A stretch of DNA of 64,000 bases from Variovorax sp. dw_308 (GTDB taxonomy: Bacteria > Pseudomonadota > Gammaproteobacteria > Burkholderiales > Burkholderiaceae_C): contig NZ_JAATOM010000004.1 of assembly GCF_019207085.1 (NCBI RefSeq), positions 496,001-560,000 on the forward strand, read 5' to 3'. The translations under genes and the position numbers were made by a program. Below the pieces are notes generated by a model. The model saw only the letters and a list, made by a program, of their open reading frames with translations, had not been told where the DNA came from and did no database searches. Positions 28,373-50,100 of this stretch are shown here, one piece after another. The number at the start of each line of letters is the position of its first letter. Within the stretch, counting starts at the first letter, position 1.

Positions 28373-28409
28373 CTCCCTCTCCCCTCGGGGAGAGGGCAGG
28401 GGTGAGGGG
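28373..28409. repeat. REP-like palindrome, copy A
   Basis: CCCTCTCCCC-TC-GGGGAGAGGG forms a perfect 10-bp stem (28375-28396) followed by the conserved tail CAGGGGTGAGGGG. It has the same architecture as the two copies inside dnaE2 at 49671-49712 and 49752-49793. It lies between the hydrolase fusion and the binding-protein gene, where it may reduce read-through or stabilise mRNA ends. Confidence 0.75.
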
Positions 28410-45048: not shown

Positions 45049-45068
45049 TACTGTATAAAAATACAGTA
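45049..45068. promoter_or_regulatory. LexA (SOS) box upstream of imuA
   Basis: TACTGTATAAAAATACAGTA is a near-perfect match to the enterobacterial/betaproteobacterial LexA box TACTGTATATATATACAGTA, with both CTG...CAG half-sites. It ends 12 bp before the imuA ATG, so LexA would cover the promoter. This puts the whole imuA-imuB-dnaE2 cassette under DNA-damage control. Confidence 0.93.
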
Positions 45069-45080
45069 ATCGATTCCATC

Positions 45081-45866
45081 ATGGGCCTTCTTTCCCTCGA
45101 CTCTTTCCTCGCTTCCGGGCGCCACAACGTGTGGCGCGGCGACGAGCTGGGCGGTGCCGACGCGCAGGTCGTCGCCACCGGCCATGCCGCGCTGGATGCC
45201 GAACTGCCCGGCGGCGGCTGGCCCGTCGGCGCCATGACGGAGGTGCTGCAATCCACGCCCGAGGCGCATGTCTGGCAGTTGCTGTTGCCGGCCCTGGCGC
45301 AGGCGGTGCAGGACCGGGGCGGGCCGGTGGTGATGGTCGGTGCGCCGCACGAGCCTTTTGGTCCGGCGCTGGCGGCGGGAGGGTTGCCGGTGGAGGCCTT
45401 GATGTGGATTCGGGGCCAGGCGTCCGGCGCCTGCCTCTGGGCCTGCGAGCAGGCACTGCGCTGCGCCGACGTGGCCGCCGTTCTCGCCTGGCTGCCGCAG
45501 GCGCGCGTGGGCGAACTGCGTCGATTGCAACTCGCGGCGGCGCAGCACGAGGCGCTGCTGTTCGTGTTCCGGCCCGAATCGGTCGCGCAAACGGCTTCCC
45601 CGGCGCGGCTGCGCTTGCAGGTGGTGCGTGACGAGGCCCATATGCAGGTCCACCTGCTCAAGCGCCGCGGCCCGCCGCTGGCCATGCCGCTCACGCTGCC
45701 CGCGCGCAACGGTCGCATGAGCGCGCTGCTGGCCGCCAGCCAGATGCGTCGCAAGGCGCGCCTGCACCCGCAAGGCGCGCCCCTCGAGCTGGGCCCTGTC
45801 GTGGTCCGGATCGACACATGGAAAGGAGCACAAGGTGCATTGGGTCGCGCTCCGGTGGCAGCCTGA
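45081..45866 (+). CDS. imuA: ImuA, translesion-synthesis-associated RecA-like protein
   Basis: This 261-residue SulA/RecA-like protein is the first gene of the mutasome cassette. It shows the family pattern 'TGHAALDAELPGGGWPVGAMTEVL' near the start and 'LQVVRDEAHMQVHLLKRRGPP', with no complete Walker A, as usual. ImuA interacts with RecA and ImuB during SOS mutagenesis. The LexA box lies immediately upstream. The gene overlaps imuB by 32 bp, giving coupling. Confidence 0.93.
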   Translation: MGLLSLDSFLASGRHNVWRGDELGGADAQVVATGHAALDAELPGGGWPVGAMTEVLQSTPEAHVWQLLLPALAQAVQDRGGPVVMVGAPHEPFGPALAAGGLPVEALMWIRGQASGACLWACEQALRCADVAAVLAWLPQARVGELRRLQLAAAQHEALLFVFRPESVAQTASPARLRLQVVRDEAHMQVHLLKRRGPPLAMPLTLPARNGRMSALLAASQMRRKARLHPQGAPLELGPVVVRIDTWKGAQGALGRAPVAA

Positions 45867-47139
45867 ACCCGAACTCCCGCGCGAGGCACTCGGCTGGTGG
45901 GCGCTGCAGTTCACGCCGCGGGTGGCCTGGCTCGACGAGGGCTTGCTCCTCGATGTCTCGGCTTGCGAACGCTTGTGGGGTGGCCGGCTTTCGTTGATGC
46001 GCCAGATTTCCGCTGCAAACCCGTCAGAGGGGCGCGTGCAGCGGGCGCAAGGCGCGACCAGCCTGATCGCGCTGGCCCGCCTGCGCCTGTTCGCCCGCGG
46101 CCAGAAGCCACCCGCAGATGTGCCGGCGGCCTTGCCGCTGGACACCCTCACGGCGGCCCTGCCGCACCTCGACGTGCTGGCCCGCCTCGGCTGCCAGACC
46201 TGGGGCGATGTCGCGGCGCTGCCGCGTGGCGGGCTGGCGCGGCGCTTCGATACGGCCTTGAGGGAAACGCTGGATGTCGCCTGGGGCCTGCGCCCCGACC
46301 AGTACACGTGGCTCACGCTGCCCGACGTGTTCGAGCAAAAACTGGAGTTGCCCGCGCTCGCCGAAACCGCGCCCGAGCTCATGTGGTCGGCCAACCGCCT
46401 GTTGTCCGCACTGCAGGTCTGGCTGCGCGCACGCCAGCGCGGCGCGGTGGCGCTGGAACTGCAATGGACGCTCGACCTCAAGCGCTTCAACGGCGTCAAC
46501 CTGCCGCCGCACCAAAGCTTCACCGTACGCACGGCCCAGCCCACGCAGGACATGGCGCACCTGCGCCGCCTGATGAGCGAGAAACTGGCGCTCACCCAAC
46601 TGGCAGCGCCCGCCAGCTGGCTGCGCCTGCGCACGGTCGAGACTTCGCCGTGGGCCGGCGCCAGCACCAGCTTCCTGCCCGAGGATTCCCGCAAGGGCGA
46701 CAAGCTGCATGAGTTGGTCGAGCGCCTCAGCGCGCGGCTCGGGGCGCAGCAGGTGGTCGTGCCGGTGACGCAGGCCGACCATCGGCCCGAGGCCATGCAG
46801 GGCTGGCAGCCGGCGCTGGCCAGAACCAGCGCCGCCGTGCCCGCCTTGCAGCCCGACGGCCTGTATCCCCCCTGGCTGTTGCGCCAGCCCTTGCCGCTCG
46901 AAATGCGCGGCGGGCATCCGTACTACCGCGGCAAGCTGCGTCGCCTCAGCGGCCCGCAGCGCCTGGAGGCCGGCTGGTGGGGTGGCAAGGAGGAAGAGGG
47001 CGGCCATCCGGCGGTGCGCGACTACTACATCGCCGAAAGCCCGGAGGCCGGACTGGTGTGGGTCTACCGCGAGCGGCTCTCCGCCCCGCTGGCCCTGGAC
47101 CAGGCGCCGCGCTGGTACCTGCAAGGCCTCTATGCCTGA
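45835..47139 (+). CDS. imuB: ImuB, Y-family polymerase-like mutasome hub
   Basis: This 434-residue protein starts at GTG 45835, six bases after AAGGAGCACAAG-type sequence. It resembles Y-family polymerases ('LDEGLLLDVSACERLWGG') but lacks the catalytic carboxylate set of Pol IV/V, as ImuB does. The C-terminal region carries 'GGHPYYRGKLRRLSGPQRLEAGWW'. ImuB links ImuA, DnaE2 and the beta clamp. Its stop overlaps dnaE2 by 8 bp. At 434 residues it is near the short end for the family. Confidence 0.92.
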   Translation: MHWVALRWQPEPELPREALGWWALQFTPRVAWLDEGLLLDVSACERLWGGRLSLMRQISAANPSEGRVQRAQGATSLIALARLRLFARGQKPPADVPAALPLDTLTAALPHLDVLARLGCQTWGDVAALPRGGLARRFDTALRETLDVAWGLRPDQYTWLTLPDVFEQKLELPALAETAPELMWSANRLLSALQVWLRARQRGAVALELQWTLDLKRFNGVNLPPHQSFTVRTAQPTQDMAHLRRLMSEKLALTQLAAPASWLRLRTVETSPWAGASTSFLPEDSRKGDKLHELVERLSARLGAQQVVVPVTQADHRPEAMQGWQPALARTSAAVPALQPDGLYPPWLLRQPLPLEMRGGHPYYRGKLRRLSGPQRLEAGWWGGKEEEGGHPAVRDYYIAESPEAGLVWVYRERLSAPLALDQAPRWYLQGLYA

Positions 47140-50100
47140 ACTCAGCGACAAGCAATTGCAGGCACGCAAGCCGCATCCGCTGCGCGAGCCCCCAAGGCGC
47201 GCCATCGTGCCGGGCCTGCCCGACTATGCCGAGCTGCATGCCTTGAGCAACTTCAGCTTCCAGCGCGGCGCATCGAACCCGGAGGAACTGGTTGAGCGCG
47301 CCTATCAACTCGGCTATCGCGCGCTGGCCATCACCGACGAATGCTCGGTGGCCGGCGTGGTGCGCGCGCATGTCGGCCTGCGCGATCACCTGGAAGCGCT
47401 CACCGAATACGAGCGGACCCATCCCGACGAGGCGCCGCTGCCGCGCAACCCCGGCTTTCGCGTGCTGTTCGGCAGCGAGTTCGCCTTCGGGCGCTTCAGG
47501 CTCGTGGTGATCGCCCATGACCTCGAAGGCTGGGGCAATCTCTGCGAGTTCATCACCGCCGCGCGCAACACCGCGGCGCCCAAGGGCGAATACCGCGTGG
47601 ATTGGGCCACCAGCGAGGTGGCGTCGCTGCAGCATTGCGAAGTGCTGTTCGTGCCGCGGCGCGTGCCCGGCGAGGCGATGGACTTGGCGGTGGCCGGCGC
47701 GGATGTGGCGAGCGCTTTCGAGTTGTTCGGTGCCAACCTGTGGATCGCCGTCGAACTGCTCAACAACCTCGACGACGACCTCTGGCTCGCCTCGCTGCAG
47801 CAACTCGCCAATCAGGCCGGCGTGCCCCTCGTGGCCGCCGGCGACGTGCACATGCACAAGCGTTCGCGCAAGCCCCTGCAGGACGTGGTCACCGCCATCC
47901 GCGAAGGCAAGTCGGTGGCCGAGTGCGGCTTTGCGCTACAGGCCAATGCAGAGCGCCACCTGCGCTCTCGCATGCGCCTGGCCGATCTCTATCCGCCGGA
48001 CTTGCTGGCCAACACCCTGGTCGTGATGGAACGCTGCCGCTTCGACCTCGAACTGATCCGCGAGCATTACAAGTACCCGCTCGAACTCGTCGGCGGCGGC
48101 GAGACACCCACGCAGACGCTGGTGCGCAAGACCTGGGAGGGCGCCCGCGTGCGCTACCCGGATGGCATGGACGACAAGATCCGTTTCCAGATCCAGCGCG
48201 AGCTCGACCTCATCGTCGAGCTGAAGTACGAGATGTTCTTCCTCACCGTCGAGGACATCGTGCGCTTCGCCCGCGAGCGGCACATCCTGTGCCAGGGCCG
48301 CGGATCGTCCGCCAATTCGGCTGTCTGCTTTTGCCTGCAGATCACCGCCATCAACCCCGAGACCGGCAACCTGCTGTTCGAGCGCTTCCTGAGCCGCGAG
48401 CGCCGCGAGCCGCCCGACATCGACGTCGACTTCGAGCACCAGCGGCGCGAGGAGGTCATCCAGTACATCTACGAGAAATACGGCCGCGACCGCGCCGCCA
48501 TCGCCGCCGTCGTCATCTGCTGGCGCACGCGCAGCGCCTTGCGCGACGTGGGCAAGGCGCTGGCCATCGACGAGCGTCTCATCGAGGCCTTCGCCAAGGA
48601 CCACCACTGGTTCGACCACGACGTGCAGGACGAGCGCATCGAGCAGGCGATGCTCACGGCCGGCGTGCGCGAGAGCACGCTCAAGCTGCGCCAGTGGCTT
48701 GAACTCACGCAGCAGCTCAAGGGCTTTCCGCGTCACCTGAGCCAGCACGTCGGCGGTTTCGTGCTCACGCAGAGCAAGCTCACGCGGCTGGTGCCGGTCG
48801 AGAAGGCGTCGATGAAAGACCGATCCGTCATCCAGTGGGAGAAGGACGACCTGGAAGCCATGGGCATGCTCAAGGTCGACGTGCTGGCGCTCGGCATGCT
48901 GAGCGCCATCCGCCGCGCGCTCGACTTCGTCAACCAGTGGCGCGGCACCTCGCTGGAGATGCACCAGATCCCGAACGACGACGACAAGGTCTACGACATG
49001 ATCTGCGAGGCCGACACCATCGGCGTGTTTCAGATCGAGAGCCGCGCGCAGATGTCGATGCTGCCGCGCCTCAAGCCGCGCTGCTACTACGACCTGGTGA
49101 TCGAGGTCGCGATCGTGCGGCCCGGGCCGATCCAGGGTGGCATGGTGCATCCGTACCTCAAGCGTCGCCAGAACCCGAAGCTCGTCGACTATCCCAAGGG
49201 CCTTGAGCAGGCGCTCGGTCGCACGCTGGGCGTGCCGATCTTCCAGGAGCAGGTGATGCAGATCGCGATGATCGCCGCCGAGTTCACGCCCGATGAAGCC
49301 GACAAGCTGCGCCGCTCCATGGCCGCGTGGAAGCGCAAGGGCGGTGTCGGCCATTTCTACGACCGGCTGGTGAACGGCATGGTCGAGCGCGGTTACGACC
49401 GCGGCTTTGCCGAAGCCATCTTCAAGCAGATCCAGGGCTTCGGCGAATACGGATTCCCGGAGAGCCATGCCGCGAGCTTCGCGCTGCTGGTGGTCGCGAG
49501 CTGCTGGCTCAAGCACTACGAGCCGGCCTGCTTCCTCGCGGCCATGCTCGACTCGCAGCCGATGGGTTTCTATTCGCCCTCGCAGCTCGTGCAGGACGCC
49601 CGCCGCCACGGCGTGGAAGTGCGCCCGGTAGACGTCATGGTGAGCCACAACGACTGCACCCTGGAGTCCCCACTCCCGCTCCCGCTTCCGGGAGAGGGCC
49701 GGGGTGAGGGCGGGGGGCCTTCGCCCCTTCCCGCGCGCGGGAAAGGCCAATCACTCCCTCTCCCGCCAGCGGGAGAGCGCTGGGGTGAGGGCGCCAACCC
49801 CCACCAACCCGCCGTGAGACTCGGCCTGCGCCGCATCGTCGGCCTCAGCGAAGCCGGCGCCAAGCGCTTGCTGGAAGCCCGCGCACAACAACCCTTCACC
49901 AGTACCGAAGACCTCGCCCTGCGCGCCGAACTCGACGCCAAGGACATGGCCGCCCTGGCCGGCGCCGACGCGCTCATGGCGCTCTCGGGCCACCGCCGCC
50001 AGCAGGTCTGGGACGCCACCGCCCAGCGCCGCTCTCCCGCGCTGCTCAAGGGCGTGCCGATCCACGAACCCAAGCTGGAACTGCCCCCGGCCCCGGAAGG

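Follow-up and report, generated by a model that had tools for sequence, protein, structure and literature searches.

Recurrent presence of dispersed palindromic repeats, read in frame, in one loop of the DnaE2 polymerase of Variovorax and related genera

Introduction

Rickettsia palindromic elements (RPE) are dispersed palindromes that lie in frame in conserved protein genes. Intragenic REPs were described in a 2013 paper whose authors we take to be Di Nocera et al. In the portion of that paper available to us (PMC3733652), DnaE2 and UvrA are named among the proteins concerned by intragenic GTAG/CGTC REPs, RPE are mentioned, and REPs in genes of the same category are found at different sites, except in Xanthomonas recB. 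The same portion shows that the authors speculated on an adaptive role in mutator evolution; neither Variovorax nor Polaromonas nor Acidovorax is named in the main text of the paper.

Here, we studied a repeat block inside dnaE2 in a 64-kb stretch of DNA (64,000 nucleotides, hereafter the window) that is part of contig C50 of a Variovorax genome of 7.9 Mb (G000). Like the intragenic REPs, as far as the consulted part of PMC3733652 describes them, the repeats of this genome, called family A, are short palindromes, often dimers, which follow the reading frame of genes for repair and replication, that of DnaE2 included. Unlike the GTAG/CGTC REPs of that account, family A has no GTRG head. Two further differences from what this source reports are that different repeat families share one DnaE2 site and that a charge bias of the reading frame is seen. 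Family A also resembles RPE as a dispersed palindrome found in frame in conserved protein genes; however, the organism is a different one, and the comparison is one of descriptions.

Results

The dnaE2 gene and its repeat block

The features of the locus are collected in Table 1, with DnaE2 residues numbered from the ATG at 47132. An imuA-imuB-dnaE2-like cassette ends with dnaE2. The LexA box consensus is CTGT-N8-ACAG, and a scan of the 64-kb window gave the box CTGTATAAAAATACAG as the sole match without mismatch. When one mismatch was allowed, five matches were found as compared to 17 expected by chance, so the evidence for an SOS box lies in the position and the perfection of this one sequence. 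Overall, the locus shows the polymerase core, the HHH and OB domains, imuAB upstream and the LexA box of a DnaE2 cassette, an assignment made for ImuB via position only and for ImuA via a sub-threshold match. The name imuA-like follows the cassette order given in the accessible part of PMC3919608.

Table 1. Coordinates of the dnaE2 cassette, of the repeat block and of an intergenic family-A copy in the window
Feature	Position	Strand	Remark
SOS box of the LexA type, perfect, CTGTATAAAAATACAG	45051..45066	+	14 bp 5' of the imuA-like ORF
imuA-like gene	45081..45866	+	SulA-type domain, weak Pfam match under cut-off; name from cassette order
imuB-like gene	45835..47139	+	without Pfam match; named by position only
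dnaE2, error-prone DNA polymerase III alpha homolog, 1132 aa	47132..50530	+	
Beta-strand codons, residues 843-845, 5' of the insert	49658..49666	+	AlphaFold2 model
Repeat-derived block, residues 846-888, 43 aa, 129 bp	49667..49795	+	predicted disordered
Family-A repeat unit 1 (CTCCC...GGGAGAGGGCCGGGGTGAGGGC)	49673..49711	+	
Palindrome between the two units, probably an inverted copy of family A that has decayed	about 49724..49746	-	by-eye comparison
Family-A repeat unit 2 (CTCCCTCTCCC...GGGAGAGCGCTGGGGTGAGGGC)	49754..49792	+	
Beta-strand codons, residues 894-896, 3' of the insert, followed by HHH helices	49811..49819	+	AlphaFold2 model
Intergenic family-A copy	28373..28409	+	

An earlier note on this DNA had described two units of the same orientation with a further palindrome between them, inserted with preservation of the reading frame. 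Both points are confirmed, as the three palindromes are present and the dnaE2 ORF is open across all of them. The extent of the insert had to be revised, from 48 residues (846-893, 144 bp) to the 43 given in Table 1. Indeed, the segment NPHQPAVRL that follows the block is native, because it is present in the related locus L132 and because L140 has nearly the same bases in another frame. The middle palindrome is nearly equal to the stretch that precedes a family-A copy in a uvrA-like gene and, by eye, looks like a decayed inverted copy of family A. The predicted peptide of the block is rich in Pro, Gly and Glu and slightly acidic.

The folding energy of the block RNA was calculated as -89.6 kcal/mol (z -3.05), a value reached by none of 200 shuffles, and an RNA-level effect of the block is possible. 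Such a fold could mean that an mRNA hairpin, or a cruciform in the DNA, slows or limits the synthesis of DnaE2. However, any palindrome of this sort would fold so and the block is located about 2.5 kb into the gene; we regard this explanation as very improbable.

An AlphaFold2 model of DnaE2 (37 sequences, mean pLDDT 69, pTM 0.61) matched Pol III alpha and PolC structures over the whole chain with Z values of 17-22. In this model, pLDDT drops below 50 at residues 851-887, and strands are predicted on either side of this stretch, the second one followed by the HHH helices. In the predicted fold, the insert therefore lengthens a beta-hairpin turn whose two strands stand at the beginning of the HHH domain. 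The Pfam HHH_6 match covers residues 827-957 (877-1007 of the longer ORF). The earlier note was thus right about a loop, while its placement just before the HHH region has to be corrected, since the stretch lies inside the HHH_6 match, ahead of the helices. A PDB sequence search with the 193-residue loop region alone returned nothing meaningful.

Family A in the Variovorax genome

The 21-base core of family A, searched with at most two mismatches, gave 69 matches at 53 sites in the 7.9-Mb genome, as compared to none for the reversed control pattern, and one match was obtained over 100 Markov simulations of the window. The control and the simulations rule out a palindrome arising by chance. Like a REP, family A is an imperfect palindrome of 20-40 bp in many dispersed copies; the intergenic copy reported earlier in the window (Table 1) is real. 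More than one unit is present at 16 of the 53 sites. Orientation alternates as in a BIME, with a forward, a decayed inverted (by eye) and a forward unit in dnaE2, and inverted pairs elsewhere. A scan of 16 bases at the left arm gave GTRG in 2 of the 69 copies, and the consensus lacks it. On these letters, family A is not a member of the GTAG/GTRG REP class.

At least 12 of the 53 sites are in genes, in frame, in nine long ORFs; the copy C82:42846, which is near an open ORF start and may precede the true start, stands outside these 12. DnaE2 is one of the nine. Five others are above the NCBIfam cut-off, as homologs of UvrA, PurL, YgiQ, TssH and the formate dehydrogenase alpha subunit, and matches below the cut-off point to a molybdenum oxidoreductase, an FAD/Fe-S oxidoreductase (GlcD-like) and an MsbA-type ABC transporter. 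Three separate in-frame sites are found in the UvrA homolog (2050 aa, L335:3323-9472, G000:C33) and two in that of PurL. The consensus unit is open in five of its six frames. As with RPE, the dnaE2 block lies in frame in a conserved protein while being absent from close relatives. A REP/BIME-like block appears to have become protein-coding in frame, as had been proposed. The view that this is a rare case could not be kept, given the at least 12 in-frame sites in nine ORFs and a REP-carrying DnaE2 already printed in 2013, as seen in the portion of PMC3733652 at hand.

DnaE2 of other Variovorax genomes

A search of 101 Variovorax genomes matched 99, among the matches listed. Family A is absent from the DnaE2 linker of the 98 others, one of which (G094) is represented only by accessory dnaE2 copies; no relative sharing the stretch, which would have spoken against an insertion, was therefore seen in this set. 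The counted linker window has 57 residues in G000 as compared to 32-33 in the nearest relatives, whose DnaE2 is about 80% identical. The relatives do not have the clean gap that had been expected; rather, they have a native loop of 21-22 residues. The ends of this loop, DCTLE and NPHQPAVRL, are still present in DnaE2 of G000, showing that the block replaced most of it. A clean insertion into a short loop is ruled out by the 32-33 residues of the nearest relatives.

In five other Variovorax genomes (G005, G015, G052, G100, G082), the same loop contains another repeat, family E; the G015 locus (L014) is below the motif-E threshold and was assigned by position and peptide. Beyond the loop, family E has at least 16 copies in G100, at least three in G015 and in G082, and at least two in G005, with none among the candidates scored in G052. 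The dnaE2 gene of G082 (L140 / L334, C5 near 471,342; L140 was read by eye and left out of the tree) shows a frameshift in or beside its family-E repeat. This frameshift may be a real inactivation or a homopolymer sequencing error.

At least two more DnaE2-type loci are present in G000, L201 (C60, 54% identity) and L200 (C32, 53%, with one TAA stop, at the contig end); no recognised repeat was found in either linker. These further copies, and published studies in which DnaE2 is non-essential (PMC3919608, available in part), would fit an insertion that is slightly harmful and merely tolerated. The evolution of the gene, however, argues in another direction. Measured against seven relatives, dN/dS (NG86) is 0.22-0.31 before the block and remains low after it (0.13-0.24), values that mostly reflect the time before the insertion, so that most of the signal may predate the block. 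Among 16 relative-rate counts, one was clearly higher on the G000 branch (upstream part, against L039) and two were clearly lower (downstream, against L010 and L089). Neither the dN/dS nor the relative-rate tests with these seven relatives detected a clear relaxation, and the cassette is preceded by a perfect LexA-type box. Tolerance by redundancy is thus not a likely explanation, and dnaE2 of G000 looks functional as judged from its sequence.

The same loop in other genera

One genome per genus was surveyed in 100 genera of a family that we take to be Burkholderiaceae in the GTDB sense. Matches were obtained in 78 genera; five were weak and DnaE1-like, which left 73 DnaE2 genera in which every linker was read. 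Linker length ranges from 11 to 181 counted residues. The longest linker (L409:410-973, G163) contains a CAGGCA tandem run and family-F repeats. Recognisable repeats were found in the linker of 13 of the 73 genera. They belong to family A in G000 and G116, to family B in G120, G126, G138, G153, G161, G172 and G208, to family C in G174 and G187, to family D in G181 and to family F in G163; for G138, G153 and G181 the score was taken from a named locus whose linker is identical.

In eight of these 13 genomes (G000, G116, G163, G174, G187, G120, G172, G208), at least two copies of the linker repeat are present elsewhere in the same genome. Among the matches listed, G161 has one more copy, and G126, G138 and G153 have none at threshold. 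Outside the 73-genus sample, many copies were found in G103 and G104 (B) and in G107 (C), one in G102 (L095) and none in G106 (L113, scored as B with some doubt). These copy numbers are minimum values, with 40 candidates scored per genome in repeat-rich genomes. Dispersal is established for all five families tested, A, B, C, E and F. Families A and E appear to be branches of a single kind, which gives five kinds of repeat in total; in the 73-genus sample, four of them (A, B, C, F) are dispersed.

Of the 201 distinct linkers (all fetched loci, accessory ones included; 25,251 bases), 20 contain a motif of families A-F, as compared to two weak motif-D matches in 481,773 bases of ORFs outside the linker; since the motifs were defined after viewing the linkers, this comparison is partly circular. 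Independent evidence comes only from copies dispersed at other places of the respective genome. L364 and L368 were judged by visual inspection rather than by the motif scan.

On a FastTree phylogeny of 200 flank sequences, parsimony requires at least 13 changes in the presence or absence of repeats, with minima of 2 for A, 6 for B, 3 for C, 1 for D, 2 for E and 1 for F; being drawn from one tree of short flanks, with losses counted as changes, these figures are a rough minimum. One ancestral insertion is ruled out, as the repeat families differ and the tree requires that many changes. Insertion is best seen in two close pairs, L107 (C, 40 residues) against L104 (28) and L108 (D, 45) against L106 (15).

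Y1 transposases and family B

Among the repeats of the DnaE2 loop, family B (TGGGGTCAGATTCCAATT) was seen most often. It adjoins four (L343, L300, L301, L304, in four genomes) of the six Y1-transposase genes found in six genomes. Family B is thus like the RAYT-associated REPs of PMC2817692, to judge from the part of that source available, in standing beside Y1-transposase genes, and it has been captured in the DnaE2 loop in other genera. The sole PF01797 match of G000 (C2:92769) has family B alongside, and no family-A copy was found within the 4 kb scanned around it. In this respect family A is unlike the REPs described in that partial source, and its mobilisation by a RAYT is unsupported. Runs of family B, often paired, were also observed in L332 and L333 (G104:C180, G103:C21); no tRNA was found in these two clusters, and the ORFs of L332, inspected by eye, showed nothing special.

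Reading frame and charge of the captured repeats

Within linkers, a single frame is used by 14 of 15 family-B copies, by all six of family C and by all three forward copies of family A. Of 11 forward A copies in eight other genes of G000, 10 use the frame seen for family A in the linkers. We ranked the used frame among the open frames by acidity (near-duplicate palindromic matches within 12 bases were dropped here, as in the hydropathy/disorder and codon-usage tests). The mean rank is 0.18 for 31 linker copies and 0.145 with one copy per linker (n=20), in both cases with 0 of 20,000 permutations as extreme; it is 0.075 with one per family (n=6, p 0.0006) and 0.119 for 17 assumed events (0/200,000), this last test using one chosen copy per event where the tree requires 15. 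In the eight other G000 genes the rank is 0.214 (n=21 copies, C82:42846 included, p 5e-5).

Charge was the third property tried, which makes the test exploratory; the acidic-frame result survives correction for three tries. Hydropathy of the used frame was not significant in the linker copies, and disorder gave a weak effect (p 0.004 per copy, 0.085 with one per linker). The codon usage of used frames is no better than chance (ranks 0.54 and 0.47) and rather worse with one per linker (0.61). Neither hydropathy nor codon usage is supported as the cause of the frame bias. Exceptions to the charge rule are the second family-F copy of L409, read in its most basic frame, and the inverted B copy of L405, in a nearly most basic one (rank 0.8); family E agrees poorly with the rule (mean rank 0.45).

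The earlier note had suggested that the insert may alter fidelity or partner contacts. An acidic frame bias and a recurrence of no fewer than 13 changes in the phylogeny could reflect an exaptation. In this view, a disordered arm of acidic character within the HHH region would adjust the DNA binding of the SOS polymerase or its access, and the repeated captures would be adaptive. The more positive DNA groove and the more length-variable core of DnaE2 as compared to DnaE1, reported in the excerpt of PMC3919608 that we used, would agree with this, as would the presence of repeats in both uvrA and dnaE2 of G000. However, family A is also in frame in purL, ygiQ, tssH, an ABC transporter gene and others that share no function, and these genes show the same acidic bias. 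Moreover, the sequence of the block varies among repeat families and the rest of DnaE2 shows no consistent acceleration. Overall, we consider this exaptation unlikely.

Discussion

Intragenic repeats, including in DnaE2, were already known. What is new is their recurrent capture at one site together with a frame rule, for which no earlier report was found in the literature searched, some of it accessible only in part. The reading that we consider probable is a recurrent insertion of repeats into a tolerant loop of DnaE2, filtered for an inert, non-basic peptide. In the Variovorax gene, a three-unit block of family A would have reached a beta-hairpin turn at the start of the HHH domain, by a transposition-like or recombination-based route, and much of the native loop would have been lost. 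Such a block would survive if its total length keeps the frame and if this frame is free of stops, and the stop-free frame would then give the Pro/Gly/Glu-rich, slightly acidic, disordered peptide. The turn would be a standing landing pad, which different dispersed repeats entered repeatedly in Burkholderiaceae. Copies whose frame gives a basic peptide seem to have been purged, presumably by selective removal, and the remaining ones may be near-neutral.

A stronger proposal is that the turn acts as a lineage-wide intake port, where dispersed repeats of unrelated origin would be taken up repeatedly and kept mainly in acidic frames, serving as exchangeable disordered arms by which a mutator polymerase of the SOS response is tuned. 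We consider this unlikely; if true, it would also explain part of the published spread in DnaE2 core length. Repeats captured in this loop are a possible cause of the heterogeneous core length of DnaE2 reported in the available part of PMC3919608.

The dnaE2 loop of the soil bacterium Variovorax is a good site to study how repeats become protein. One polymerase loop offers a replicated natural experiment, with several repeat families and many lineages at a single site, and it makes it possible to test whether neutral tolerance or selection underlies the conversion of non-coding repeats into protein. The data suggest a simple rule, the use of an open frame close to the most acidic one, which can be checked across bacteria.
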